DNA of 64,000 nt from Magnolia sinica. Lineage: Eukaryota > Streptophyta > Magnoliopsida > Magnoliales > Magnoliaceae. This document shows positions 12,701-62,721 of this stretch, piece by piece. Position numbers and translations under genes: made by a program. Position 1 is the stretch's first letter, and every line of letters starts with the position of its first letter. The notes under the pieces are model-generated. The model did not search any database and had not been told where the DNA came from. It saw only the letters and a list, made by a program, of their open reading frames with translations. The DNA is taken from contig NC_080577.1 in the NCBI RefSeq assembly GCF_029962835.1, positions 5,456,001 to 5,520,000 of the forward strand, written 5' to 3'.

Positions 12701-13949
12701 TTAACAGTCTCAACAAACTTATTAAAAAAAACAAAAAAGACATGAGAAAAGACAGAACTGCAAGGTAGAACAGTAAGTCTAATTTCATTTCATTGCTTGA
12801 TTAGTCTATGCACTATGACTTCATCGAGTCAATTGCTATGTTAGAAGGCAATCTTCATCGAGTCAATTGCTATATGTTAGAAGGCAATCTTCATCGAGTC
12901 AATTGCTATATGTTAGAAGGCAATGTACTGCTATATATATTAACTAACATTTGATAGTGAAATGTTATTATCTCTGGTTTTGGTAGCTTCTGTTTCCATC
13001 TCTTTTATATTTGACTAATCATCTTAAAAATTAAAATGAATCCTAAAATCTTCTAACTGAATTTATTTTTTTCAAAAATGATTCAAATCAATCTGGTCTT
13101 TGTAACGGTTTTAGGACCAAATTTGATTTAAATAGCATCTGTTTCTCCATACATTTTGTTACTGTGAATCTGAATGAATATTGTATGTTGTCATTCTTTT
13201 TGCATTGCATTAAAATTGATATGATTTGGCTTCTGATATAAGTTATTCAAACACTTTCAGACTCGTCAGACGATGTCTGCATTGAGGACTGTTACATTAG
13301 CACTGGCGACGATGTGATCGCCATCAAAAGTGGGTGGGATGAGTATGGCATTTCCTATGGTCGTCCAAGCACAAACATATTCATCCGTCGTGTCACTGGA
13401 GAGACTACATCTAGCTCCGGAATTGCACTTGGGAGCGAGATGTCAGGCGGTATATCGGAAGTGCATGTGGAGGGCATCCAGCTTTTCAATTCAAAAAATG
13501 GTATCAGGGTAAAAACATCACCGGGGCGAGGCGGTTACATTCGGAACGTTTACATCTCGGATGTGACCATGACTGATGTAGAGGTAGCCATTAAATTCAC
13601 TGGTCAGTATGGCCAGCACCCAGATGACAATTACGACCCAAATGCTCTTCCTATCATAAAGAGGATCACCTTCAAAGATATAACAGGAAAAAACATCAGG
13701 TTTGCAGGCAAGCTACAGGGCATAGAAGGGGATAGTTTCCACAACATATGCTTATCCAACATCACCTTGGATGTGATATCAGATCCACCATGGAACTGTT
13801 CATACATTCGAGGCTATTCTAGATTAGTCTCTCCCAAGTCCTGTGAGCCTCTTAGAAAGAGACTCCCCAAGGATTCATTGGCCTGTTACTCATCTAGTCC
13901 TTTGCCAAGCAAACCGTCTGAAGGCAGACGCTTGGTTAGTACGATGTGA
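9777..13949 (+). CDS. Polygalacturonase-like protein (glycoside hydrolase family 28)
   Basis: Six exons join in frame: 9,777-9,794, 10,482-10,799, 11,749-11,869, 12,060-12,234, 12,364-12,434 and 13,261-13,949. They give 463 residues, and every intron is GT-AG. The start MKRSVT is split from a hydrophobic signal or anchor segment (LLEVLLVLAFI) by intron 1. GH28 landmarks follow in order: ITEFGAVGDG near residue 45, SPNTDGIDPDSS, STGDDVIAIKSG with the paired catalytic Asp, SGIALGSEMSGG, and the IRVKTSPGRGG substrate-binding loop. Known GH28 enzymes cut or trim alpha-1,4-galacturonan in pectin of the cell wall, and secretion is expected. The usual Gly-His-Gly of classical endo-polygalacturonases is replaced by Ser-Gly-Ile. 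I believe this is normal for the plant 'probable polygalacturonase' clade, so endo-activity should not be assumed. No stop or frameshift is seen. Confidence 0.93.
12819..12924. repeat. 36-bp tandem repeat in polygalacturonase intron 5
   Basis: Three head-to-tail copies of a unit starting 'CTTCATCGAGTCAATTGC'. The first copy lacks a two-base AT present in the others. They lie wholly within the intron between exons 5 and 6. Confidence 0.85.
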
Positions 13950-40559: not shown

Positions 40560-41020
40560 TGACAAATAGTGGGCGCTTTCTAGACTGTAGAGCCCACCTT
40601 CATGTATGAGTTGTATATCCACGCCATTCATCAGTTTTTACACATCATCTTAGTATATGGTCTGGAAAATGAAGGAGACCTAAATCTTAGGTGGACCACA
40701 CCACAAGAAATAATAGACATTGAGAGCATGCCATACAAAAAAACTTCACAATGGCCGTCGTAATGATTTTTTACCATCCAACTTGTTGATAAGGTTAGGG
40801 ATACAAGGATAAAGGGAAAACACAAATATCGGCTTGATCCAAAACTTTTGTAGCCCCTGGGAAGTTTCTAATCGTTAATCACCCATGTTTCCTGTGGTGT
40901 GGTCCACTTGAGATTTGGATCCACTTCATTTTTGGGATTATGTACTAAATTGATCTGGAAAAACTAATGGACGTCCTGGATATACAACACATACATGAAC
41001 TTGGCCCCACGGTTAGTGAA
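40560..41020. repeat. Palindromic repeat, family A
   Basis: Left 'TGTATGAGTTGTATATCCAC' faces right 'TGGATATACAACACATACAT', close to perfect complements. Inner blocks are as in the 29,440 copy. Confidence 0.65.
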
Positions 41021-41107
41021 ACACCCACTCCAAAGTGTTTCCCAGGCTACAAACTTACTCGGATTGGGCAGCGACCCAGCAACCCAAGCTGGTGCTGTGC
41101 TGACGTG

Positions 41108-41535
41108 GCAAATTCTGTGAGCCAACCGTGTGATGCATGTGTTATATCCACACTGTTCATCCATTTTCTCAATTATTTTAGTGTATGAGCCGAAAGACTG
41201 GTCAATCCAAAACTCAATTGGACCACACCAAGAAAAGCAGCCGTGACAATGACCCACCGTTAAAATCTTCGTAGGGTTGACAATGATGTTTATTTGTCAT
41301 CTTACCTGTTCATAAGGTCACGCAAACCTGAAGAAGGGAAAACACAAAAATCAACTTGATCCAGAACTTCTAACTCTCAAGAAATTTTTAACATTGGACG
41401 TTTAATTCCCATTGTGTGATCTACTTAAGCCTTGGATCTACCTCAATTTTAAGTTCATGCTCTAAAATGATCGTAACAAAATGGATGCTCAGTGTAAATG
41501 AAACCCATACATCATGGTGGGCCTCACAAAGCCCT
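41108..41535. repeat. Palindromic repeat, family A
   Basis: Left 'GATGCATGTGTTATATCCAC' and right 'AAACCCATACATCATGGTGG' bracket the usual inner blocks. It is tandem to the preceding copy with a short spacer. Confidence 0.6.
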
Positions 41536-41845
41536 TTCTAAGTTGAGGAGTCTATTCATTTCCATTTTTGCAGCCGGGGCGAGATAACATTAAACAGGAG
41601 AGAAGCATTTAATAGAGAGAGAAAAGAGGAAGATGATTCTTTCCAAAGAAAAAGGGATGATTAAAAAATTATACACATGTGATGTATTTGGATGAAGTGC
41701 CACATATGTAAAAAAAATCTAATATGTTAATTAAGTAACGTCTATTGTAAGCAAGTGAATACAGTTTTTTATTTTTATTTTTGTGATAAAAAAATGTGAT
41801 ATTTTTCTAAAAACATTTAGACCATTAGAAATCCATTCCAATGGT

Positions 41846-41905: not shown

Positions 41906-42554
41906 GTTATAACTCAAGCCAAGTACAGGCCGAACTTCAAATCGAGTCAAGCTTGAGCCAACTCGAGCTTAGTTCAAAATTCTTTGAAGCTCAAAAAATC
42001 AATTCAGCTCAACTTGAACCTAGCTTTCCAGTTGAGCCAAGCTTTTTCGAGCCGAGCTGAGTGAGCTAACCGAGCTAGCCCGGTTCATGTCCAACTCTAG
42101 CCAATTCTTTCAGCCTGCTCCCAGCCCGGCCCATATATGATTTCAATGGCAAAATTTGACAAACATCGTACATGATGGAGGCCCACTTAATGAACAGCCG
42201 AAATCTTTCAAAAATGGGTTGCCGGACTTGGGCTCCGTTTAAACTCAGGCTTGGACCAGGCCAATGGCCTAAGTTCTACTTTGTGGGGCGGGCTTAAACA
42301 GACATCGCCCATCCCGGTGAAAGCTGTATTGATAATTGTTTGGATCCTAGTTCAGTTGCATGTAGATTTCAATCACAATTTACCTGCATGCAACCCACGA
42401 GAAATGGTCCATGGCTTGTGGGTCCCATTGAGACCGTTGCCCCAATCATAAGTTCGTGAGGTCATGGACTAGTGCCACCTTGTGGGGGCCCACCAAAACT
42501 CATGATCATACCAAGCCGGCCCAGCAGCTCCTCCTTACCACCAATTATCGGCAT

Positions 42555-42655
42555 GGACACCCAGAGTTCCCCCAAACACTTCAGTGGAGCCAGGCAAGTG
42601 CCCCAAGAGTTGCCACAGAAGTGTTAAGAGGAACTCCAGGGGACCCCCAATTCAT
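42555..42655 (-). ncRNA. MIR395: MIR395 precursor (minus strand)
   Basis: The minus strand at 42,564-42,584 reads the 21-nt mature miR395 sequence, which starts CUGAAGUGUUUGGGGG and ends AACUC. This is the canonical plant miR395 (3' arm). The opposite arm at 42,614-42,634 (GUUCCUCUUAACACUUCUGU...) pairs with it and is the expected star. The loop is about 29 nt, and the stem continues as GGGGGUCCCCUGG below. miR395 is known to target ATP sulfurylase and a low-affinity sulfate transporter, and is induced when sulfate is scarce. A TATA box and a UPE-like motif lie upstream. It is closely related to the plus-strand copy 4.5 kb away. Expression is inferred, not shown. Confidence 0.92.
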
Positions 42656-42708
42656 CTCAGCCCTTGATTTCCTGTGGTTTTCGATGAAGGGCCTTGCCAC
42701 CCCTACTC

Positions 42709-42719
42709 TATATTTATAT
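42709..42719 (-). promoter_or_regulatory. TATA box of the minus-strand MIR395
   Basis: ATATAAATATA on the minus strand, about 55 bases upstream of the hairpin base. The aligned TATA of the paralogue at 47,060 sits at the same relative place. Confidence 0.7.
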
Positions 42720-42776
42720 CCAACAATGCTCGAAGATAAGTCTGTATTGCATGAGAATGAATCTAGAGTGCAAGTT

Positions 42777-42796
42777 ATGTACATTGAACTTGGACG
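42777..42796. promoter_or_regulatory. UPE-box-like sulfur-limitation motif
   Basis: ATGTACATTGAACTTGGACG matches 18 of 20 positions of the UPE box as I recall it (AGRTWCATTGAAYCTRGACR). That site is bound by EIL3/SLIM1-type factors in sulfur-starvation promoters. It lies about 60 bp upstream of the minus-strand MIR395 TATA box. Confidence 0.6.
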
Positions 42797-43375
42797 TTTT
42801 TGCAGCTCAAGTGGGAAGAGAATCATATCTTGTGTGGTCAAAATCCATGCTCTCTCTATCTGGCTATTGAAATCGATCCAGATGTAGCAAGGATCAGGTG
42901 CCTCAAACATCATGGTCCATTTAGACTTTTTACCATCCATTTTTTTCTTTGGCATGAACTTTTCAACCAGTCCCCAAGTGGCCCCTGTGTTTTACACATG
43001 AGTGAGGTCTCTAGTTTTAGCAGGGGCGATATTTTATAAGCAAGGTATAATCCTTGCATGATAATGGACTAATAATTATAATATGTGTGCCATCCATACC
43101 AGCATCAATACGCCAGATCTCATTAGAACTTGCATTTAGGTATATCCCCACTAGAAAAGTATTAATGCATCAGATCCCATTAGAACTCTATTAATGTATT
43201 GGTCCCAATAGAACTTGTGTCGTGACACATGTTTTGGACTATATATTTGTAGGGTGATCCTTAGAGCTTTTTATAAATACACCAAACTTGTCAGTACTCG
43301 ACAGTTAAATGTGCTTATTAAGCTACACTGGTAAAGGTGACCTTATGAGAAGCCCTCATGTTGCACATCTCCCTC

Positions 43376-43378
<3 letters not shown>

Positions 43379-43433
<55 letters not shown>
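43379..43433. repeat. (TA)n microsatellite
   Basis: About 27 TA units. Confidence 0.95.
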
Positions 43434-43439
<6 letters not shown>

Positions 43440-43725
43440 AAAAAGATTTAATGATTTTGATATGGTTTGTGTTTACACCCTCCTATCCCAATCCATGTGG
43501 ACCAGTAGGAGGTTGCCATGTGTTGACACTATAAATAAGCAATGAACACAATCTTAATCGCGCTTCAAGAAAAAATTTTCATCCACATCCTTCGGCGACA
43601 TGTTGCTTGCCAAAAGCGAAGTGTTGCAGGGCTATACGCACGTCTATGGTCGATAAGCACAAAATGTTGTCTAGTGGCGATGTGGTTGTCACATGCTTGG
43701 CATATATAGTCATAGCCTATACAAG

Positions 43726-44117
43726 CATTGTTCGAAATATTGGCATAGTTTTACAGATCGCATCCTTATGATACATATACGTATTGATTATTGTACATAA
43801 TATCGTTTGTATTGAGAAACATAGAAAAATTGTTGAATTTTTCAATGAAACTTTAAGAATTGTTTTTTTTTTTAAAAAAAAAACATTAATAAACACTTTT
43901 AAATCATAACATATCAAAAAAGAAATGCACATAATATGTTTCTTTTATGTGGTGTCATAATTTATGCGTTATCTGACTGAACTAATGCAACTATATTCAA
44001 ATTAAATGCATAATACTTAGAGTGTATCTGATGATCATTTCATCTAACACTTCTAAATATTTTGAAATTAATTAAATTAATCTCAATTAACAATTGTTCG
44101 AAGGGAAATTTTATTAC

Positions 44118-44188
<71 letters not shown>

Positions 44189-44694
44189 AACAAGGACTTA
44201 ACAAATTAGCATATTAGCCTTCATACATGTTTGATTTCATGTTTAGAGTACAACATTTTAAGTAATTTGCGAGAAATTGAGAAATTTTAAAATTTTCTTC
44301 AAATCGGACTACTTACATTCAAATTTTGAAATTAGAGTATATGTGATGATCATTTCCTCAAACTCTTAAATATATCAAAATTAGTCTCAATTGATAACTG
44401 GTTGATGGAAAGTTTCGAAAAAAACATGGAGAATATGAAGAACGGATGGATATCAAAATTAAAACTCTTACTCCTTGATTTTGCATGCAAAATAAGAAGA
44501 ACTAATGAATTTACAATCATTTAACACTGATTTAACATATTTTCAATAAAAAAAATAGATCAAAAATTAAAAATACTTACGGGATCGAACATGTGGGATA
44601 TATCGACACTACCTATGTGTTTCGTATTGCACAAGTGGAATACAAGATATATCATAAGATATATTGACCAATATTGTCGATATTTAAAACATTG
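43726..44694. mobile_element. TIR element, family D (969 bp)
   Basis: The left end CATTGTTCGAAATATTGG pairs with the right end 'CGATATTTAAAACATTG'. The interior matches the copy at 59,795-60,756 in reverse orientation: 'gggatcgaacatgtgggatatat' against 'atatctcacatgttcgatccgg'. An (AT)n array sits inside near 44,124-44,185. No transposase is seen. Confidence 0.65.
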
Positions 44695-44759
44695 TATACA
44701 AGAAGCTATATAAAAACCTACTGATGCCAAGTATCTTGTTATCCAACACACCATTGGTG

Positions 44760-45520
44760 GGCTACCTCACATGGTCCTACTAAAAATAAGAAATATTTTC
44801 AGAGATGATCAGCAATTTCCCAAAGATAAGCAATCAAAGTCAATATATTAGAAGCAAATCCCAATCAAAGGTGATATATTGGAAGTAAGTGACTTTTGTA
44901 TAAAGAAAGGGAATCACGATGAAGTGTTGAATCACGATCTCTCAAATATATGGGGGTTCGATCTTCCGAAGACCAACAACTACCTCCCAACTCTATAAAA
45001 GCAGTTTTTAAAAGAGAGCTCAGGGCACATGCCAAAACACACAATCTTATCATTTAAAGATACAACACAACGATGTCTTTACCTTAGATTAGTCTTAGAA
45101 TCCTTCATTTATGTCCAACCCTCATCCCAAGTGTTAGGTTAGGTCTTAGTTTATTTTCGCTACCATCCAGTGTCCCCGTTGCAATACACATTTAGAATTA
45201 GGTTAAATATCTGCGACCATCATTGTTGGATATGTGGTTAACCAAGTCAACGCTTGGAAGATCACTTTCCAATTAGGTCCTTCGGACTGCTTCACTGTAA
45301 TTGTCAATCTATACAAGTTGGTTTAGATATTTTATCTCTCTCATTTATTTTGCCTGGTTCTTAATGCCGATTGTAATTTTTATATTTAATATCAATAAAA
45401 TCAATATTTAATACCACACTTCTTATTCATTTTATTCTTAAATTGAATAGATTTAGAGATTGCTATCACTTTTGGAAGAAAAGTTATTAGCACAGGGTTT
45501 TTTTTTTTTTTTTTAAAGAA
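44760..45520 (+). mobile_element. Possible LTR-derived sequence
   Basis: 'CTCCCAACTCTATAAAAGCAG' less one base is a strong TATA context, followed by a leader and an AATAAA near 45,393. That layout is LTR-like. Ends and target duplication were not defined, so this is tentative. Confidence 0.3.
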
Positions 45521-45699
45521 GGATTAATCTTTCCCTTTTAAATTGCATATTTGGTACACATTCGTGATTGGACACTCAGATTAACCTTTATACGTCTGAT
45601 CTTATAATTAATTTGACAGTTAGTTTCCAAGCGTTCAATCCAACCCAAGTCAAGTATAAAAGTAAATAAAGAACATTGGGCATTCGGTGGAAATGATGC

Positions 45700-46480
45700 C
45701 TGGAGCATTTAAAATTTAAAATTTTCAAAAGTCCATTCTCAAATGCCTGTTAAAATTCTCACATACCATTGTTGGATGGTGGGATGGTGGGACAAGTGTC
45801 CATCCACCGTCCATGTGCATAGTTATCATACATCTTTAGTGTTTATGATTCTGACAAGTGGGGATCATCATTTTGTAATCGAGACCAATGTTTAAACCGC
45901 CCCGTCACAGTTTGGATCAGGATCTGTGGCCTTTCCAGGCTGGCCATTATAGCTTCTGGTTTCGGATTGGAAATGCAGTCACACAGTTTTCTGTTCCAAC
46001 CGTCCAAGCCCGATAGTCTGGACCAGACCCGGCAGCTCTTTTTAGCGGTTCACAAGGTTGAACCGGTATGGACCGGGTTCCCAGTAAAGATGGGTTGGCA
46101 TCTGGTACAGGTTTTAAAACAATGATCCAGACCGTTGCTCAGTTGAGTCCCACAGGTGATAGAGCATGACCCAAAAGTCTCCTAGATTGAAGGATCCCAC
46201 CAACAACATTAGGACCCTGGACCCTTGATCTGCTTACCTTCTTAACTAGTTAGACCGTCCCTTTAGGTGATTTTCGAGACCTAGTCCATCCAGATAGGTA
46301 AAAAAGCATACGAACGGCCTGGATTACGATCCTATAAGCCCAGCTTCTCAGAATCCAAAAGCCGCGTACACTGAAAAGATGCGGCCACTTGTCACACAAT
46401 TCCCCCACGTGAATAGCCCAAGAGATGGAAAGGAGTGTGTGTGACCACCAGACTATGATTCTCTGCCCACTTTTGTTGGG
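45700..46480. other. Diverged repeats (family C), nothing else recognised
   Basis: Shares 'catgacccaaaagtctcctag' less one base and 'gatcccaccaaca' phrases with 16,560-16,610. No coding exon is seen. Confidence 0.4.
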
Positions 46481-46487
46481 TTGTAAG

Positions 46488-46507
46488 TGTCTTGGTTCAA
46501 TGAATGT
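46488..46507. promoter_or_regulatory. UPE-box-like motif, distal
   Basis: TGTCTTGGTTCAATGAATGT is the reverse complement of a UPE-like site (18 of 20 matches), about 570 bp upstream of the plus-strand MIR395 TATA box. Confidence 0.5.
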
Positions 46508-46748
46508 AGTATATACACATAAGCTGTGTGTATAGTCTCTACTATAACTAGAAGAGTAACTAACCTTAACTAAAATTAGAGACTTCATGCAGTGTGCTTA
46601 CTGATCAAATGACAGCCTTATGTAGTAATAGAGAATGGGGTGGATAGCCGTCCATCAAGTTGGGCCCACCATTTCAATGGCCAAGAAATAGCTAGGCTTG
46701 TTGTGACCACTCCAGCGGTTATTCCCCTTCCCACTCGAGTCCTGATAA

Positions 46749-46768
46749 TGTCCACGTTCAATGAATGT
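46749..46768. promoter_or_regulatory. UPE-box-like motif, proximal
   Basis: TGTCCACGTTCAATGAATGT again matches 18 of 20 positions on the reverse strand. It lies about 310 bp upstream of the plus-strand MIR395 TATA box, in the same orientation relative to its gene as the 42,777 site. Confidence 0.55.
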
Positions 46769-47059
46769 ATCTTACACACCAGGGGGTCAGATTATGGTCA
46801 TAGTCCGACAATACTCTTGGAATTGTGGTGTCGCATCCAGCCGTTCACTGGCACAAAAGTTCAGAAATCCTGACCGTACGGTTTTGTGATGTAGAAGATC
46901 CTAGCGGGTCGTTCAGTTTTTGGAAGGTCCAGATTGACGTGTCTTAATATATGGTGGTAAACTATCACAGTGATCTTATCCACCTAGACGATAGAGCATC
47001 CATCTACGGATCTCATGCGAACATGTTATTGGGCAGAATAATGAAGAGATAGTGTAGGG

Positions 47060-47067
47060 TATAAATA
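47060..47067 (+). promoter_or_regulatory. TATA box of the plus-strand MIR395
   Basis: TATAAATA, about 70 bases upstream of the hairpin base. Sequence from here to the hairpin aligns with the minus-strand paralogue ('ccttcatc', 'caagggct'). Confidence 0.7.
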
Positions 47068-47130
47068 GGGAAGAGGGTAGGGTAGCCTTTCATCACAAAC
47101 ACCCTTAAAAAAAATTCCAAGGGCTAAAAT

Positions 47131-47235
47131 GAGTTGGGGGTCCCCTAGAGTTCCTCTAAACCACTTCAGTAATTCGACTTGGGCTCTTCATGCTCATTCT
47201 ACTGAAGTGTTTGGGGGAACTCCTGGTGTCATCCA
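47131..47235 (+). ncRNA. MIR395: MIR395 precursor (plus strand)
   Basis: Positions 47,202-47,222 are exactly the 21-nt canonical miR395 (CUGAAGUGUUUGGGGG then AACUC) on the 3' arm. The 5' arm at 47,150-47,170 (GUUCCUCUAAACCACUUCAG...) is the star and pairs along its length. The loop is about 31 nt. The lower stem begins 'GAGTTGGGGGTCCCCTAGA', shared with the other copy. Known miR395 loci occur in clusters, and the product cleaves ATP sulfurylase and sulfate transporter mRNAs under sulfur limitation. The two copies here point away from each other. Confidence 0.93.
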
Positions 47236-47239
47236 ACCG

Positions 47240-48009
47240 TCTCTTTCTGCTCATTTCCAGCTTTCCCATGGGACCCAACAATTCCCTGCCGTTCATCATA
47301 CATTGTTGCCGTTGTTATCAGTTTCACTGGCTAGTGTAACTGACAAGGAAATTGATCTTAGGCTTCAAGAGTTCTACAAAACCACCTACACCTCTCCATG
47401 GTACATCCTATCCGTTCAATTGGGTGGACCCCACTGTCAATATGACCCGGCCCAAAAGCCAGGCTGCTTGGCTCATCATGTTGGCCACAAAGACGAAAAC
47501 AATGGACGGTCAAACGAAACTTCACTGTGCCAAAAATCCACGTGATGGACAAGTCAGATTTCAACTCCCCAGTTTTCATTGCATTCTGTTTTTTTGCAAA
47601 TCATAAGTAGATAGGCTAATCATTGTACTAATTGCAATTGCATTTTTCAGCTCTACGGGCCTACATTACAGGCTCAAGACCAATACAAAGAGAGCCGAAA
47701 TGGTGGGCCGTTTGGCTGACCCAACCTTAGGCACAGTAATCAAAGCACATGGCCTTTAGATATTCCATCATGTATTCACTACCCCAGAGTATCAGGGCCC
47801 ACCGGATGAACTATTCGGATCATTGAAAGATGGGTCCGGTTCTGCTGATTGCTTGGCCCATCCAGCCGTTGATCATTGCAAGAGACTTACAAGGGAGAAC
47901 CTCATCCACCCAGATCGGAAAGAAATAAAAATGTATTTTTATTTCTTTCTAGATTCAAGTAATGCACGGGGATTCTCAGCAGGTCCGTTGAGCCGACTTC
48001 AAGTGGGCC
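47240..48009. other. Downstream of MIR395, nothing recognised
   Basis: Mixed sequence with family C phrases. It could include the rest of the primary transcript. No coding or structural feature is supported. Confidence 0.4.
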
Positions 48010-48175
48010 TCACCAAAAGCAACGATGGGAATGGGAATAAACCTCTTGGGGGCACCGCAGTGTTGTGTTCCACTTGAGCCTTGATCTGCCTCATTTTTTA
48101 GGTTACGCCCCCAAAAGATATAGAAAAGCGGAATAGCGAGGATGAAATGCATACATCATGGTGAGCTCCTCAGAG
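48010..48175. repeat. Family A repeat, right half only
   Basis: Contains 'ttgtgttccacttgagcctt' and ends 'gcatacatcatggtgagctc'. The left arm is missing. Confidence 0.5.
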
Positions 48176-48284
48176 CCCTTGCCTATGCCTGGCTGGGACA
48201 GGCGGGATAGTACCCAGTCCGCGTTTGTGCCCCTGGCCACATGAAATTCCTGTGGTAAAGGGCGCTGGTGAGGTGTTACCAGCT

Positions 48285-48765
48285 AACACAGCTTAGTGGG
48301 TGTTACCCTTGCTGTAAAGCCAATCTGATGGTATGTTGTATATTCACTCCATTCATCTGTTTTTTTCTATCTCATTTTAGGACATGGTTACAAACATTAA
48401 GCATATCTAAATCTAAGGTGGACCACATCACAAGAAACAATGATGACTGAACGCTCACCATTAAAAGGTTCCCAAGGCGGGCGGTAAGCAGATCAGTAAT
48501 GTTTATTTTTCATATAACCTATTGATAAGGTCAAACAGAAATGGATAAAGGGAAAATAGAAAGATTAGTTTAATCCAAAACTTCCATGGCCTACAAAAAG
48601 CTTTTAACAGTTATTCACAACTTTTTTCACTGGTGAGGTCCACCAGATATTTAGATCTTCTTAAATTTTGGGACATCATCCTTAAATGATCTGAAAAACA
48701 GATGAATGGGTGACGTGGATATGAAACAAATTCATCAAGGTGGGCCTCACACTAAGGGTAACATC
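48285..48765. repeat. Palindromic repeat, family A
   Basis: Left 'GGTATGTTGTATATTCACTC' and right 'AAATTCATCAAGGTGGGCCT' bracket the family blocks, including 'attgataaggtcaaacag'. Confidence 0.6.
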
Positions 48766-48919
48766 CATTAGGCTGCTCCCTGGGTAATGGCTAATCCACT
48801 CCCCATGGTCAAAAGCTATGTGGGGCCCACTGGGATGCTACTGACATTTTCTCAAACACATGAAATGCACCTTCAATTTCTCACGGTATGTAAAACAGCA
48901 GCAGCAGTTTACAGGTATT

Positions 48920-49325
48920 TCATCAAGCACTCCCTATGCAACGTCAAAATCAAGATACAAGGGTATTTGTTTCATATACATACCTTCCTCACCACCAGCT
49001 AACACTTCATTGAGTCATTTCATCGAACACTTGGTGAGCAACATCAATATCAAAATAACCGAGTCACTGAACTGGTTCAATCCAAGTTCGATTTGAGTTG
49101 AGCTCAGGCAAGCTCGAACTCGGTTCATCAAACACTCCCTATGCAACGTCAAAATTAAGATACAAGGGTATTTGTTTCATATACATACCTTCCTCACCAC
49201 CAGCTAACACTTCATTGAGTCATTTCATCGAACACTTGGTGAGCAACATCAATATCAAAATAACTGAGTCACTGAACTGGTTCAATCCAAGTTCGATTTG
49301 AGTCGAGCTCAGGCAAGCTCGAACT
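48920..49325. repeat. 204-bp tandem duplication
   Basis: Two nearly identical head-to-tail units share 'CACTCCCTATGCAACGTCAA' and 'caccaccagctaacacttca', and end 'aagctcgaactcggttc'. Few differences imply a recent origin. Confidence 0.85.
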
Positions 49326-49489
49326 CGGTTCGAAATTTTTTCCAAGCTTAAAAAATTTAAAAAAAAAAAAAAAAACAGCTCGACTCGGCCGAGCGAGCTA
49401 ACCGATCTAACTCGGTTCGTGTGCAGCTCGCATATATGTTCTCCCCACATAACTTCCGACTACAGGAACTTCCCTTCGGTCCCCGCTGT

Positions 49490-52060
49490 GCACCACGCCA
49501 TAATCCAAATCATTCATCTAGCAGCTCCTGTTGGTCAACGTAATCATTAATATGGGGACTTCAAAGATGAATGGACTGAATAATAACATGATCGGGCAGA
49601 AGGGGTAGCAGAAGCTGCAGAACCCGCGAGCCTCCAGGCGAGAGCTATGCTGGCAGTGAACCTCAAAAGAAAAACAACGGAAAGAATGGGACCTCAACCT
49701 CTGTACATTGGCATTCAAGCAAAGGTGAGCTAGAAAATGCTTTACCGGGAGCAGCAAGTCACTTTCTATGAATGAACCATCTACATTGGAGGCTTCCAAG
49801 AGGAACGATCTCAATCATCGCACGGTGGGGCAGGAGGGACAACGGGTGGGCCACCTCCATGCAGCCATCCTCACAACCAAAAACACTGGAAAGAAAGGGA
49901 CCTCAACCTCTGCATGCATTTTCCCGCGATAGTTTTGAGTTTGTGGCCGTTGAAAATCTCACAACCTAATTGTATTCAAAGGGAATTTCAGATGATTTCC
50001 CGGCGCCACTACAAAAAATACACAGCTCATGTTACACTGATAGCCGACAGATGGAAGGCATTTCAGTAATATGCAAAATCTATAACCACATCATCTATAT
50101 CCACTGCCTCAGCACTTAACACCGCATCTGAAGATAGGCGCGGCGATTCGCTCCCTTCAAAACCTAGCTTGGCCTGAAAGGTGCTCATATCTGACATCCG
50201 CTCAACAAACTATGCAAAGCGGCGCCAATTATCAGGGTCAAACATGTGTTCATCCATCCTCACAAAGTTGAAAGAGAGAGACTTCTTGGGCATTCCATTC
50301 ATCTAAAGCTTCGAGTTCTTCACAATCTGCTCCAATGATAAATGATCGTACCACTTTGAGGAGTTCTCACCCATGACCGGTATCTTGCTATTCCTAGTGG
50401 CAGACATGACTTGTCTGACAAACACTTCAGGTTTGCTGCTCCGGTCAATCTTTATTTCATCTTTGTCTCGGAGGTTGAAGCATTTGCAGCACAAGGTCAT
50501 GTTGTACTTGCCGAGCATGTGGGCGATTGGGAGGTAGGCATTACCGATCAATGTATTGTAATAGCTGGCCGTTAGTTCAGACAGATGAGAACTCGTAGTG
50601 TAGTGTCAGTGAATGCCAGCCACTTTTCCTGAAATCTTCACACCAGTACCTGAGAAGATGGCCCCTGCAGCCATGGAAAGCCTCTCCCCATGTTGAAGCA
50701 GCATCCCAGAATACCACTTGAGAAAGAACTGACCATAGGGTGTGTTCCAAGTACCATTGTCCCTTATGAAGAAGCTCGTCTTTTCTGGTTCCTTTTTTGG
50801 GTTATCAGCACCAAGGAGATCTGTATTTCCCCACTCAGGCATCCCAACATTTTGTGCAGAGGCATTCAACGAAGCAATCATGTACTGACATGTGAAAGAA
50901 GAAGAAACAAGATTCATAAAAAGCACAGTATATAAGAAATGATTTGAATAAATGAGAACAAAAGGAGGAGATGGGCAAAAGAGTTCTTCAAAGCACAAAA
51001 ACAGTAGATTGGTGGGCGGGAATCCAAATGCAGTTGAATCCGGTTAGCTACCTTATCATAGCACTAAAACTCTCCGATTTGTCGAAAGTGCCGCCATGCC
51101 CAGGAGAGCTTCTCAGAAGGGCGAGAATGATATCTCAGTTCGCCAGCAGGACCCATCCCAACTTAAATGCCCTGCAAAATGAAGTAACAATCACTGGTAA
51201 GCCTACATTTGGCTACCTTTGAAATGTTTTACAACCCATGTATACACCTGAAATGCAGAATCTTATGAATCGAACAAAAAAATCTTACTGTTATGACCAC
51301 TCCAAGATACCCGCTGAAACTATCTCGAAAATTCCTCATAAAATCTGAATAGACTTGAATAGGAGTTCAATCTACTAGAATCCTAGGCACTTCATCGCAT
51401 CCCAGGGATATGTATTCCTTGCTCCTTAATCCAAACCTGTTCAAATGAGCCAAATCTAGTTCCTCATCCATCTCTTTAAGCACCCAGTGAGGAAGAGGGA
51501 TCCTTTGACGTGGGAAGCGGGAAAAAAAAAACCCCACAGTTTTTTTTCCTTTTAAAGATGAAGCAATTTATTAGGAAAAGCCAAAAGCAAACCAAACTAC
51601 ACAGGAAAAGAGAAATGTACAACTAGAAAACAAAAGGGAAAAAGAAAAAGAAAAATCTAAAACTAAAATACAACAAGAACAACAACCCACGGGCTGGAAA
51701 ACTGGCCAGGAAAAATGCCCAGAGGGCACCTAATCCCTCGAATACAACTTTAACCGAATCTAAAACCCCTGATGAGGAAAGACTCTTGTTATGGAAGCAA
51801 CGGTTGTTCCTTTCTCCCCAAATAGCCCATAGAGTAGCAAGGACTAATCTTACTTGTTCCCACCGATAAATAATGCAGACAAAAGACAATGATAATATCA
51901 AATGGAGAAAGAACTCGAGGCATCATAATCAAATAAACAATCTAAACTCATATGATTGAGGAAATCAATGATGCACTAAAAGGAATAACATAAGAACAAT
52001 GACAACATCAGCACATGTTTCTGTTGTTGCAACTCAAAAGGCATTTAAATTCTACGGCAG
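49490..52060. repeat. Segmental duplication, left copy
   Basis: This stretch aligns collinearly with about 60,780-63,430. It covers the 3' flank, beta-amylase exons 4, 3 and 2, and the LINE tail. Matching anchors are 'ggggacttcaaagatgaatg' and 'gcctccaggcgag'. The left gene's first exon and the Copia element lie beyond it, and the right partner continues past the window end. Confidence 0.85.
51541..51890 (-). mobile_element. L1-type LINE tail inside beta-amylase copy 1
   Basis: The minus strand encodes LVLATLWAIWGERNNRCFHN, the C-terminal tail after an L1 reverse transcriptase, ending in an A-tail at 51,541. The same insertion is present in copy 2, so it predates the duplication. Here the distal end is lost. 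Confidence 0.75.
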
Positions 52061-52846: not shown

Positions 52847-55800
52847 AGACTTGTTAGACAGGCCACATGCCTTGCCTTGCATAGCCGATTCTATAGATAG
52901 ACAATGTATAAATAAGAGATTTTGCATTTATCATTTTACCTTGTATAGTCGTTGTAGAACTCTATAAATTCAACCCTTCAGGGTTGTCTCAAATACAAAA
53001 AAAGGAAAGGAGAATCATTTTCCTCAAAGCCTTCATTGTTTTGCCTTGTTTACATGGTATTAGAGCAATACCGATCATAATCCGGCATCTTCTTCATCAC
53101 CGGCACCACCGTCTGTCAAATCCGGCTCCTCCTCTGTCAGATCTGACCCTCACAAAGCTCATCCGGCAACTGTCTGCTGCATCAACAGCCCTGTCCGACC
53201 CTGCCATTGCTGCGTCCGGCCCTGCATCTGACCCTGCGCACGCCCCTGCTTCACGTCCGATCATCCTCAATCTGTCTGACTATTCCCAGGCCCGTCCGAT
53301 CACGCCCTGCTGTCCGATCATGTCCGTGCGCGTCCTGTCACGTCCGATTACACCCTGTTGTCCCGTCTAATCACGTCCTCTGCCTCATCCGATCACCCTC
53401 TACTGCACACGACCTACTACACAAATCCCTACCTCATCCAATCACCCTCTGCGCACACTCTTGCCTCTGTACTGCGCATAATCCCTGCCTCTGGTGTTGT
53501 TGTTGTTCTGTTTCTGTCCCTGCAACCGGCTCTTCTGCTGCAAGGTAACTTCTTCCTTGGCGTGGTTTATCTCACTTCCAACCTATGGAAAAAGACTCCC
53601 GTACAGAGGCCCCACGATGTAGTTTCGATGGCACCAACTACAATCTATGGGCCATCCACTTTCAGAGTTTTCTCAAGGGTCATGGTTTATGGGGATTAAT
53701 TGATGAATCTGTTACTATCCCTGCTTCCACCGATGCCGACAAAATGGCTGATTGGGAAATGAAAAATGGACAAATTATTACCTGGATTTTTGATTCGGTC
53801 GATCGAACAATAATTGTTGGCTTCACGCCACATCGCACTGCTAAGGCTATGTGGGATCATCTCCAGACAATATATCAACAGAGTAATGCGGCATGGTTAT
53901 ACCGCCTGGAACAAGATCTAGTTCACCTTACTCAGGGTGATAGAAGTATTCAAACTTTCCACTCTACAATGGTTACAATTTGGACAGAGATGGCTATGAT
54001 GGATTCAGAATTCCCAAATGACTTTAAAATATTCCACACAATACGCGAGAGTGCGCAAGTTAGACAATTTCTTATGAAACTGCGACTGGAATTTGAGCAT
54101 TGCAGGGTTGCTCTTCTGAACCGTAGCCCCACTCCTTCAATGAATTCGGTTATTAATGATTTATTAGCCGAGGAACAATGACTGCAGTCCTCTCTCTGGG
54201 GACATCACAGGGACCATCTGACCTGACACTTACTGTATCCACCTCTGCACCAAACCGTGGTTCCACTACTTTGATTTGTCGCGGCTGTAACAAAGTAGGA
54301 CATGTCGTCGCTCAGTGCAAAGATTGGTGCGCTTATTGTCGAAGGACTGGTCATGGTATTCAGGACTGTCGTTCACGTGCCTACGCATCCTCATTCAGCC
54401 ATGGACGTGGTGGTCGAGGTCGTGGCCATGGTCGTGCTTTTTCTGCCACTACTTCTTCCGAGCCTTCTATTAGTGATATTGCATCCACTGGTTCTATTGA
54501 AGGTCTTTCCTCACCTTTGACTCCTGCAATGCTCCAGCAGATCATGCAGGCCGATATGTCAGGTATCACCTCATCTTCTCCATGGTTCTTCGATTCTAGT
54601 GCTTCATGGTCGTGCTTTTTCTGCGACTACTTCTTCCGAGCCTTCTGTTAGTGATATTGCATCCACTGGTTCTATTGAAGGTCTTTCCTCACCTTTGACT
54701 CCTGCGATGCTCCAGCAGATCGTGCAGGCCCTTTCTGCGGCCGGTATGTCAGGTATCACCTCATCTTCTCCATGGTTCTTCGATTCCGGTGCTTCAAATC
54801 ATATGACTGGTGATGTATCATATCTCTACAATACTCGTCCCTACACTAGCAATTAGGCTATTTCTACTGTAGATGACACTAAACTACCCATATAGTCCGT
54901 TGGTTCCTTAACTTTCTCTCCTTCTGACCATCACCAGTTTACCCTTCGTGATGTGTTTCATGTCCCTAAACTCTCCTCAAATTTAATTTCTGTTGGTCAA
55001 CTTACATCCAATAACTGTTTGGTCATCTTTCTTCCAAATTGTTGTTGTGTAGGATCTGGCAACGGGGAAAGTACTTGGGAAGGGTAGGCGGCATGAATGT
55101 TTGTACGTGTTGGACTTTCACCCATCCATTATTCCAGCTCGTTGTTTCTTCTCTCCTTCTTCCTCGGATATTTGTTCGGCAAATAAAATGTGCAAACTCT
55201 GGCACTTTCGCCTGGGTCATCCACATTCTGATTGTTTGATTCAGCTCTTTTCTTCTGGCATGTTAGGGAATATTTATCTTAATAAAAGTGATTTGGATTA
55301 TTCTTGTTCTTCCTGTTGCCCTTCAAAAAGTAAGTGTATTCCCTTTCCTCTAAGTACTATAAAATCATCATCTATATTTGAACTGGTGCATACGGATGTC
55401 TGGGGTCCTTCACCAATTATGTTTCTCTCTGGACTACGATATTATGTTATATTCATTGATGATTTCACCCATTACACCTGGATTTACTTTTTGCACTCAT
55501 TTGAAAAATTCAAAATATTTCATTCTATGGTAGACACTCAATTTCGAGTAAAAATTCAAACTCTCCGCTCTAACTCAGGGGGAGAGTATCTCTCCACTAA
55601 TTTTCGTACATATCTTACGGGTCATGGGATTACTCATCAGACCACCTGTTCTGATACTCTACAACAAAATGGGGTGGCTGAACGCAAAATTGTCATATTG
55701 TTGAAACTGCCAATACCTTAATGACAGCTATGAGTGTTCCTCGTTCCTTCTGGGCGGAAGCTATGATGCATTCAGTCTACTTGATTAATCGGTTGCCAAC

Positions 55801-58000
55801 CACAGTTCTGAATAGTAAATCTCCCTACTTTGTTCTCACCGGTTCTCTTCCTACATATTTCACACTTCATGTTTTTGGTTGTGTATATTATGTTCATCTG
55901 GCATCACGTGAATGTAACAAACTTTTCCCAAAATCAGTAAAGTGTATGTGTTTGGGATTTGGAGAAACTCATAAGGGTTTTCGTTGTTATGACCCGGTCT
56001 CTCGTCGTGTACGGGTATCACAACATGTTGTTTTTCTTGAGCATATTGCCTTCCATTCATCCAGTCCTCCTTCGCCCACACCAGACTCTCCTGGTCTTAC
56101 TATTTTTCCTGACATTCCGGTTGCATCGAGTCCACCTTCTTGTCCATTGCAGGTTTATTCACGATGACCACGTATAGATCCATCACCTACTATTCTCCCT
56201 ACCGTACCTGTAACCGATCCAGATCCTATCTTGATACGTCGTTCCACTCATGAACATCGACAGCCTGATCGTTTGATATACTCTAAGTCTACCATGAATA
56301 CTACCCTGGATACTGTATCTATTCCTACTTCATATCATCAGGCAGCCAGTCATGATTGTCGGAAGAAGGCTATGACAGAAGAACTTACAGCATTGAATGA
56401 TAACTATATGTGGGACATTGTTACTCGACCTCCTGACCACCAATTAATTGGCAGTAAATGGATTTATTCTGTGAAGCTCAAATCTGACGGATCATTGGAT
56501 CGATACAAAGCTCGGCTTATCGTTCAAGGATACAAACAGAAACACGGAATTGATTATGATGAGACATTCGCTCCTATGGCCAAGATGAAAACTGTTCGCA
56601 CTCTTCTGGCAGTTTCATCAGTTCGCTTTTTGCCTCTCACTCAGATGGACGTGAAAATTGCTTTTCTTCATGGAGACCTCCAAGAAACAGTATATTTGAA
56701 ACCTCCTCCTGGTTCTTTAATCCCTGCCAATAAAGTCTGTCGCCTGAAGAAAACTCTATACGGTCTCAAACAAGCCCCTCGGGCATGGTTCCAACGTTTT
56801 CATAATGTTGTTATAAGAGTTGGCTTTACTCAAAGTGGTCATGATCCATCCTTATTCTTATGCACCTCTAAGCATGGAATCATCATTGTTCTCGTTTGTG
56901 TTGATGACCTACTTCTGACTGGTAGCAATGACACTGGCATCTCGGCATTAAAGGACATTCTGAAGTCATCCTTCAAGATGAAGGACCTGGGTCATCTAAC
57001 ATACTTTCTTGGACTTGAATTTTTGCGTTATATATGTGGAATCCTGGTCAGCCAGCATAAATATGCCAAGGATCTTCTCGCCTTGGCCTCCTTAACGGAT
57101 CAAAAGACAGTTCAGACTCCCTTGGAACTTAATGTTCAATATGATCGTAACGATGGTGAACTCTTTGCAGATCCCACATTATACCGCCGTTTGATTGGGA
57201 GCTAATTTGTTTTTGCTCCTCGAACTCTTCATATGACTGTAGTATTACGCATCTTACGGTACATATGTGGAACTCTAGATCGATATCTGTTCTTCTTCTC
57301 CACAACCTCTCTAGATCTTCGTGCTTATTCAGATGCTGACTGGGCCGGTTGTACTCTCACCCGCAGATCTACCACTGGCTACCGTGTTTTTCTTAGCACT
57401 TCTTTCATCCCTTGGAAGTGTAAGAAGCAGGCCACTGTTTCCAAATCAAGCACGGAGGCCGAGTATAGAGCAATGTCAACAGCTTGTAGTGAGATTATCT
57501 GGTTACGTGGACTTCTTTCTGACTTGGGCGTTCATCTACAAGATCCTATTCCACTCCATGTCGATAATCTGAGTGTCATTCAGATTGCCTCTAATCCGGT
57601 TTTCCATGAACGGACAAAGCATATTGAAGTTGACTGTCACTTCATCCGCGAGAAGTTTCAGTCTCGACTCATTTCGTTACCACATGTCGCTTCCCATGAT
57701 CAGATTGCCGACATTCTCACGAAGTCCCTCACTTCTGCACGCCACTCATTTTTAGTTAGTAAACTATTACTTATCGATGACCCGCATTAGTTTGAGGGGG
57801 AATGTTAGACAGGCCACATGCCTTGCCTTGTATAGCCGATTCTAAAGATAGACAATGTGTAAATAGGAGATTTTGTATTTATCATTTTACCTTGTATAGT
57901 TGTTGTAGAACTCTATAAATTCAACCCTTCAGGGTTGTCTCAAATACCAAAAAAAAAAAAAAAAAAAAAAAAACACGGATAATCATTTTCCTCAAAGACT
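52847..58000 (+). mobile_element. Ty1/Copia LTR retrotransposon (fossil) in beta-amylase intron 1
   Basis: Short LTRs lie at 52,852 to about 53,037 and 57,803-57,995 (TGTTAGACAGGCC start). The 5-mer AGACT flanks both sides. A tRNA-iMet-type primer site (TGGTATTAGAGC) is at 53,055 and a purine tract precedes the right LTR. Parts appear in Copia order: gag with a zinc knuckle (CRGCNKVGHVVAQC, near 54,273), protease (DSGASNHMTG), integrase (LWHFRLGHPHSDCL, HTDVWGPSP), reverse transcriptase (SKWIYSVKLKSDGSLDRYKA) and RNase H (DADWAGCTLTRRSTTGY). It is broken in several places, and gag has an internal tandem duplication. The LTRs differ at about 6 of 150 aligned bases, so it is fairly young. It lies antisense to the host pseudogene. 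Confidence 0.92.
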
Positions 58001-59794: not shown

Positions 59795-60756
59795 TAATGT
59801 TTTAAATATTGATGATATCAGCCAATATATCCAACGATATATCTTGCATTCCACCTGTGTGATACGAAATGCACAAGTAGTGCTAATATATCTCACATGT
59901 TCGATCCGGTGAGCATTTTCAATTTTCAATCTCTTTTTTTATGTTGAAATTATGTTAATTCAGTGTTAAATGGTTATAAATCCATTGATTCTTCATGTTT
60001 TTGCATGAAAAATCATGGAGTTTGAGCTTTGATTTTGATTTCCGTATGTTCTTTATGTTCTCCATTTTTTTCAAGATTTTCCTTCAACCAGCTATCAAAG
60101 GAGGGTAATTTTAAAGTATTTAATAGTATTTAATGAAATGATCATCTTATACATTCTAATTTCGAAATTTAATTATAGTTGGTCTGATTTGGGGAAAATT
60201 CGAAATTTCCCCAATTTCTCCCAAATTACTTGCAATGTTGCACTCCAAACATGAAACCAAGCTTTCATGAGGGTTGATCTACTGATTTGTTAAGTCATTG
60301 TCAATTTTTGAAAATTTAAAATTATTTTTAATTAAAATTTAATAAAAATATTAAAATATTTTTTTTTTCAAAATTTCCTCTTTACCAGCTATCAATTGAG
60401 ATTAATTTCAAAGTATTAAAGAGTGTTTGATGAAATGATCATCATGTATACTCCAAATGTTATGCATTTATTTTGAATATAGTTGCATTAGTTCAATCAG
60501 ACAATACATAGCTTAGGATCCCATACAAAGGAAACCTTGTGCACTTTTTTTTTGAGATGTTATAATTTAAAATCATGTATTAAGATCTATTCTAACAATC
60601 TCTGAAGTTTTATTGAAAAATTCAACCAGTTTCCTTGTGTTTTCCAAAAAGTCCGGTAAATTCCTCGATACAAATGATATATCCCGTGTGATAAACGATA
60701 CATATATGTATCCCAAGTATGGGATACGCAACGCGATACCGATATTTCAAACATTG
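59795..60756. mobile_element. TIR element, family D (962 bp)
   Basis: The left end TAATGTTTTAAATATTGATG faces the right end CCGATATTTCAAACATTG. It is the reverse-oriented sister of 43,726-44,694, alike over its whole length. No coding capacity. Confidence 0.65.
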
Positions 60757-61301
60757 CCCCGTGAAGGCTCAACACGATCTGCTAAGCCGCTTGTGCCCCA
60801 CCACGTGATGATCCAAACCATTCACCTAGAAGCTCCTATGAGTCAGCGTGAAAGGCGTTGAACGATCACTCATGTGGGGACTTCAAAGATGAATGGACTG
60901 GATCATCACATGATCAGGCAGAACCAGCGAGCCTCCAGGCGAGGGCCATGCCATCAGTGAACCTCAAAAGGAAAACAACCGAAAGTATGCTCACAAGTCA
61001 CTTTGTATGGATGAACCATTTAAATTGGAGGCTTCAAAGTAGATTGGCTTGGATCATAACACGGTGGGGCAGGAGGGGCAACAGGAGGGCCACCTTCTTG
61101 CAGCAAACCTCAAAACCAAAAACACTGGAAAGAAAGAAACCTCAACCTCTGCTTGCATTTTCCACACGAGTCTTGAGTCTATGACTGTCGAAAATCTCAC
61201 TATAGAATTGTATTGAAATGGAATTTCAGATGATTTCTCGGTGCTGTTACAAAAAATACACAGCTCATGTTACAATGTATAGACAAGAGACGGAAGGTAT
61301 T

Positions 61302-62721
61302 TCAGTTATATGCAAAATCTATTCCCACTTCATATGTTTGCACTTCCTCAACTCCTAACACAACATCTGAAGATCGACGTGAGTCCCTCCCTCCCAAACC
61401 TAACTTGGCCTGAAAAGTGTTGGCGTCTGACATCCACTTAACAAACCGAACAAAGCAGCTCCAATTATCAAGCTCAAATATGTTTTATCCATCCTCACAA
61501 AGTTGAAAGAGAGAGACTTCTTGGGCATTCCATCCATGTAAAGCTTCGAGTTCTTCACAATTTGCTCCAACGATATATCACCATACCACCTTGTGGAGTT
61601 CTCACCCATGAGCAGTATCTTGTTATCCCTAGTGGCAGACATGACTTGTCTGACAAACACTTTGGGTTTGCTGCTCCAGTCAATCTTTATCTCATCTTTG
61701 TCTCAGAGGTCGAAGCATTTGCAGCACCAGGTCATGTTGTACCTGCCGAGCATGCAAGCAATCTGGAGGTAGCCATGATTGATCAATGTATTGTTATAGC
61801 CAGCTGTTAATTCAGATGGATGACAGCGCGTGGTGTAGTGCTAGTGAATGGCAGCCACTTTTGCTGAAATCTTAACACCAGTACCCAAGAAGATGGTCGT
61901 TGCAGCCATAAAGAGCCTCTCCCCATGTTGAAGCAACATCCCAGAGTACCACTTGATAAAGAACTGACCATAGGGTGTGTTCCAAGTACCATCATCACTT
62001 CTGAAGAAGCCTGGATCGTGCGTCCGGCTATCAGCACCAAGAGGATCCGCATTTCCCCACTCAGGCTTTCCAACATTTTGTGCATGGGCATTCAGCGAAG
62101 CAATCATGTACTGACATGTGAAAGAAGAAAGGAGATCGATACAAAGCATGGTGTAGAAGAAATTATTTGAATAAATGAGAAGAAAAGGAGAAGATGGACA
62201 AAAGAGTTCTTCAAAGCACAGGAACAGTAGATTAGTGGGCAAGAATCCAAATGTAGTCAAATCCTTGCATACCTTATCATACCACTGAAACTCTCCAGCT
62301 TGCCGCAAGTGCCGCCATGCCCAGGATAGCTTTTCGGAAGGGCGAGAAGGATATATCAGTTCACCAGCAGGACCCATCCCGACTCGAATGGCCTACAAAA
62401 TAAAGTAACAATCTCTGGTACAGGCTACATTCGGCTACATTTGAAATGGTTTACAACCCATGTATACACCTGAAATCCAGAATCTTATGAGTCAACCAAA
62501 AACATCTTACTGTTATGACAACTCCAAGATACTCTCTGAAAGTGTCTCAAATATTCCTCATAAAATCCGAATAGGCTTGAATAGGAGATCAACCTCTAAG
62601 AATGGGCACCTCATCGCATCCTAGGGATATGTATTCCTGGTTTCTTATTCCAAACCTATCTGAATGAGCCAGATCTGGTTCCTTGTCCATCTCTTCAAGC
62701 ACCCATTGAGGAAGAGGGATC
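61302..62721 (-). pseudogene. BAM3-like: Beta-amylase (BAM3-like) pseudogene, copy 2 (partial in window)
   Basis: Exons 2, 3 and 4 (62,511-62,721, 62,273-62,392, 61,302-62,110) correspond one to one with copy 1. Exon 1 would lie beyond the window. It reads [56 protein letters not shown] and MGENSTRWYG, so both catalytic Glu are kept. Stops: TGA at 62,589-62,591, at the same codon as in copy 1; a second TGA at 62,547-62,549; and TAG at 61,841-61,843, the Trp of IHWHY, also hit in copy 1 by a different change. Another TGA follows FDL in exon 4, and a one-base loss occurs near the C-terminus just after VRMD. It is probably non-functional, although exons 3 and 4 are less damaged than in copy 1. 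Confidence 0.88.

Follow-up and report, generated by a model that had tools for sequence, protein, structure and literature searches.

The 64,000-nucleotide stretch of Magnolia sinica DNA analysed here (the window; contig NC_080577.1, designated C5, positions 5,456,001–5,520,000, in an assembly of 1.84 Gb and 127 contigs) carries two divergently oriented MIR395 genes, which encode the same 21-nucleotide (nt) microRNA (miRNA), miR395, a curb on sulfate use, and have upstream boxes resembling a sulfur-deficiency element, the UPE-box. The reading that we consider probable is that these are two separately promoted genes induced by low sulfur through the UPE-like boxes, and that the pair is older than a block duplication producing a copy on contig C14, where one of the two hairpins was later lost. 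The pair is ordinary in kind (MIR395 clusters are well known) and its genes are new members of an ancient plant family. The UPE-like element at all five MIR395 loci found in the genome, and in a C14 remnant that has no hairpin, appears to raise the case somewhat above routine.

The canonical miR395 sequence, CTGAAGTGTTTGGGGGAACTC, was located by pattern search of the window at 42,564–42,584 on the minus strand and 47,202–47,222 on the plus strand, each time on the 3′ arm of a hairpin, exactly where an earlier reading made from the letters alone (the sequence-only reading) had placed it. No third match is present in the window at up to three mismatches, and 100 shuffled sequences gave zero matches, which rules out chance occurrence of the 21-mer. 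The left hairpin (42,554–42,646, minus strand) and the right hairpin (47,138–47,232, plus strand) score 60.6 and 67.2 bits, respectively, against the Rfam model RF00451, above its cut-off of 56, and are the only Rfam matches above cut-off in the window. Among 13 weak Rfam matches, nine belong to other families, lie far under their cut-offs and were dropped, and two correspond to the opposite strand of the MIR395 hairpins. Neither transfer RNA genes nor miR395 target sites (at up to three mismatches) were found in the window.

When folded, both hairpins form a long stem, at −54.4 kcal/mol for the right (z −5.5) and −53.2 kcal/mol for the left (z −3.25), and none of 200 shuffles was equally stable in either case. 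The mature strand is paired at 21 of 21 bases in the right hairpin and at 19 of 21 in the left. The star strands, predicted from the fold with an assumed 2-nt 3′ overhang, lie at 42,614–42,634 (minus) and 47,150–47,171 (plus) and are not the same. A TATAAAT box stands ahead of each hairpin, at 42,712–42,718 (minus) and 47,060–47,066 (plus), and local alignment pairs 42,725 to 42,556 (minus) with 47,053 to 47,230 (plus), from the TATA box through the hairpin end. Judged by this alignment, the left and right copies are paralogues over that length, and the inverted homologous segments, together with the RF00451 identity of both hairpins, uphold the proposal of a gene duplication with inversion. 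The hairpins overlap open frames at 42,432–42,887 and 47,081–47,545 (both plus), with no protein evidence in either. Differing star arms, TATA boxes at matching places, homology through the hairpin and concealment within noise-like open frames had all been claimed in the sequence-only reading and are borne out; the folding that it proposed as a check gave the stable structures above, and the search for more copies turned up no other in the window and three additional loci elsewhere in the genome.

The two hairpins lie on opposite strands with 4,491 nt between them and both face outward, in agreement with the divergent spacing of about 4.5 kb first described. The mature sequence, its position on the 3′ arm, the match to the hairpin model and the close spacing of copies are as known for MIR395 (RF00451). 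Published work gives six MIR395 genes in two clusters in Arabidopsis and 24 in four clusters in rice (PMC5344913), and grape loci are often clustered (PMC2147077). The rice clusters lie on the same strand and are thought to be polycistronic (PMC2812943), unlike the present pair, which is on opposite strands, 4.5 kb apart, with a TATA box for each gene. The pair thus departs from a polycistronic MIR395 cluster, in which hairpins on one strand share one transcript. Plant miRNA clusters within 1 kb show a one-strand bias, and across three genomes only four clusters combine opposite strands (PMC2812943); the orientation of the Arabidopsis MIR395 genes was not found in our literature searches. Between the two genes lies a repeat of about 970 bases (43,725–44,693), which recurs inverted at 59,796–60,757 with 73% identity, and the other repeats detected near the pair were for the most part AT runs and dispersed repeats. 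Direct repeats at about 41.2–41.5 and 48.3–48.6 kb were considered as part of the pair and rejected; they belong to a repeat that occurs throughout the window. A dispersed and diverged repeat, whose core resembles CATCATGGTGGGCC and occurs in both orientations, lies at 40,585–41,536, 48,058–48,767 and elsewhere in the window, its copies mostly 64–80% identical.

Across the genome, the 21-mer was found at six places at up to two mismatches, compared with one place for the reversed pattern, and the exact 21-mer had no match in viral contigs or prokaryote contigs searched as a further specificity control. Besides the window pair, these places comprise an exact copy at C14:2,053,055, two copies on C2 (19 kb apart on a single strand, each with A in place of T at base 7) and C6:78,956,098, which has two mismatches and, read on the complementary strand, is a candidate site for targeting by miR395. 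A genome search with RF00451 agrees on the same five MIR395 loci, with 67.2, 61.8 and 60.6 bits above the cut-off and 54.4 and 49.5 below it, so that one of the three loci outside the window passes (61.8) and two fail. Of the 257,514 first-look candidates in that search, 46 were scored, and five is therefore the number of loci found rather than a proven total; the search also gives below-cut-off matches in six of 14 control genomes, and matches on C12 and C5 at 24.8 and 24.6 bits were dropped as noise. At one position within the mature strand the base pair is A-U in three copies, and the two on C2 have U-A instead, with both sides changed: the miR395 variant of the C2 copies (L004:1501–1521 and L005:1501–1521, minus) carries A at base 7, and the star arm is altered to match, as would be expected if the hairpin were under selection.

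The UPE-box, 20 nt long, is a sulfur-deficiency element to which tobacco EIL2 (NtEIL2) and Arabidopsis SLIM1 bind (PMC4206189, PMC4292543). With the consensus taken from PMC9229004, three UPE-like sites were detected in the window at up to three mismatches, each with exactly two and each upstream of a MIR395 gene: one for the left gene at 42,777–42,796 (plus), and a distal (46,488–46,507, minus) and a proximal (46,749–46,768, minus) box for the right gene, both with a counterpart kept on C14. The chance expectation per window is 0.14 sites at up to three mismatches (shuffles) and 0.007 at up to two (simulation), the latter equivalent to about 0.1 per Mb. The other three loci have one such box each, with its start 181–645 nt ahead of the miRNA. 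A UPE-like box with two mismatches is thus found upstream of 5/5 MIR395 loci, the right gene of the pair having two, and all six sites are oriented reverse to their gene. In the 264 kb that surround the C5, C14 and C2 loci, the search at up to three mismatches gave eight sites, every one with exactly two mismatches and every one at a MIR395 gene or at the C14 remnant; in the same sequence, 300 permuted consensuses averaged 0.34 sites (maximum 3) at up to three mismatches and 0.02 (maximum 1) at up to two. Each site meets 18 of the 20 consensus positions, and the core CATTGAA is present in all eight. Between the left gene and its C14 copy the box is identical at 20/20 positions, with flanking stretches at 77% and 88%.

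Several points weigh against the favoured reading. None of the eight sites matches the full 20-nt consensus, and position 2 (G) fits none of them. The sites are paralogous and not independent, the motif was spotted by eye before testing, and the 264 kb were chosen around MIR395 loci; for these reasons we call the sites UPE-like only. The hairpins of the C14 copy and of one C2 copy fall under the Rfam cut-off (54.4 and 49.5 bits). Further, the UPE-box has been reported in just eight Arabidopsis genes, two of which, APR1 and APR3, are SLIM1-independent, and it is therefore not accepted as the main binding sequence of SLIM1 (PMC4212615, PMC3400089). Compared with the UPE-boxes of the LSU and UP9C promoters (SLIM1/NtEIL2), the present sites are likewise 20-nt elements upstream of a sulfur-linked gene, but each has two mismatches, never has G at position 2 and always lies reverse to the gene.

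Some of these considerations feed an unlikely but substantial alternative, in which the genes are real and the boxes are not SLIM1's sites, being inherited promoter sequence of related copies, with induction through SURE or short TEIL sites or by an indirect route. The misfit of position 2 in all eight sites, the occurrence of UPE-boxes in SLIM1-independent genes (PMC4212615), the statement that SURE elements bind SLIM1 as well (PMC10243980) and the fact that reviews leave open whether SLIM1 acts directly on miR395 (PMC4206189, PMC8910084) all fit this account. It is opposed by the extent of the match, which covers the entire 20-nt element in a single orientation, by the box remaining unchanged between the left gene and C14 where the neighbouring sequence differs, and by the lack of any other such site in the 264 kb. 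On balance, induction of both genes through the UPE-like boxes remains the reading that we favour.

A stronger proposal can be put forward only tentatively, at somewhat less than even chances: that the variant UPE-box in fixed reverse orientation is an old site at which SLIM1/EIL3 docks directly on MIR395 genes, kept at five loci through several duplications and outliving the C14 hairpin, with the two boxes left on C14 possibly acting on the neighbouring left copy. In Arabidopsis, induction of miR395 under low sulfur depends on SLIM1 (PMC4206189, PMC4212615, PMC3400089), and direct action of SLIM1 on miR395 was called open in reviews of 2014 and 2022 (PMC4206189, PMC8910084). The excerpts of literature mentioning both the UPE-box and miR395 report no UPE-box in a MIR395 promoter. 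A tomato study of 2025 found the SLIM1/EIN3 site enriched in promoters of sulfate-responsive miRNAs, so that a link between SLIM1 and miRNA promoters is not new in kind (PMC12428225). Both cases tie the same factor family to miRNA promoters by sequence; the tomato result is an enrichment of a motif across the 3-kb promoters of numerous miRNAs (PMC12428225), whereas the present one concerns one long element at each of five MIR395 loci.

The age of the pair can be judged from the C14 block copy. The window from about 0.7 to 47.5 kb aligns inverted, with gaps, to C14:2,082,200–2,049,131, with about 72–92% identity in the stronger pieces; a last short matching piece reaches 47,895, past which no ordered C14 match is listed within the fetched stretch. 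Polygalacturonase-like gene frames at 10,470–13,949 (plus; Pect-lyase_RHGA_epim, Glyco_hydro_28) are also in the C14 block. There the left gene retains its hairpin as well as its box. The sequences flanking the right gene (46,049–46,887 and 47,233–47,543) match C14, and the 345 bases between them (46,888–47,232), which hold the TATA box and the hairpin, are replaced there by 40. Both right-gene UPE-like boxes persist in this C14 remnant (L008), at C14:2,049,603 and 2,049,821. With the mature bases left out, identity is 86.8% between the left and C14 copies, 64.9% between right and left, and 65.1% between right and C14; of the 20 columns that distinguish left from C14, the right copy agrees with left in eight, with C14 in nine and with neither in three. 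The right copy is thus equally far from the other two, which indicates that the pair split before the C5/C14 block duplication; by this count of sites, the pair is older than the block. A tree of five short rows placed L002 on a long branch and contained an open fork, and the age argument rests on the site count instead. The TATA anchors of the two C2 copies are poor (L005 is clipped, and the L004 match is probably in inserted sequence), so that C2 identities there are rough.

It is very unlikely that the right gene is instead a recent insert, in which the left TATA box and hairpin were copied to a place beside the UPE-like boxes after the C5/C14 duplication, with the hairpin-less C14 state as the original one. 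The near coincidence of the point where left–right homology stops (47,230) with the point where C14 homology restarts (47,233) would suit such an event. However, a recent origin of the right copy is disfavoured by the above identities and column counts, the missing stretch begins at 46,888, 165 bases ahead of the left-gene homology, and boxes without an adjoining gene would be hard to explain. Loss of the right hairpin on C14, rather than gain on C5, is the simpler reading and is probably correct. That one or both hairpins are silent relics, their mature sequence kept by chance, is also very unlikely; loss does occur, as in the sister C14 copy, but both genes retain an exact mature strand, good star pairing, a TATA box and UPE-like boxes, and loop and spacer have diverged meanwhile.

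Under the favoured reading of two separately promoted genes, each gene would have its own promoter, and in sulfur shortage an EIL-family factor of the SLIM1/EIL3 type would bind the UPE-like boxes that precede each TATA box. Transcription would proceed outward in both directions, and the short transcripts would fold to hairpins from which DCL1 would release the identical 21-nt miR395. The miRNA would direct cleavage of plastid ATP sulfurylase messenger RNA (mRNA), and probably also of the mRNA of a SULTR2-type transporter (SULTR2;1). An inverted duplication older than the block duplication behind the C14 copy would have produced the pair itself, and the right hairpin would have been lost from C14 later. 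A candidate target is present on C6, where a 21-base miR395 site with two mismatches (L006:1501–1521; C6:78,956,098) lies in an open frame that encodes a PUA_2 domain and that we take to be ATP sulfurylase. The 3-kb stretch around this site contains no UPE site at up to four mismatches.

The rest of the window holds several duplicated and repetitive features. Similar minus-strand frames with a partial beta-amylase domain (Glyco_hydro_14) lie 11 kb apart at 50,606–51,043 and 61,841–62,392, and non-coding stretches near them (49,755–49,999 and 60,994–61,237) are 82.5% alike; together these make a local duplication likely. A 208-base unit is duplicated head-to-tail at 48,919–49,331, and its 98% identity suggests a recent event. 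A retrotransposon of the Copia type, in which gag and reverse transcriptase domains are recognised, occupies 53,549–57,790 (plus).

Despite the identical mature miRNA, the distinct star strands of the two window genes allow their reads to be separated. The five related promoters with a common UPE-like element, together with a C14 block that has the boxes minus the hairpin, constitute natural test material for direct control by SLIM1. If the box is indeed a direct docking site, the question of direct SLIM1 control of miR395 would be settled.

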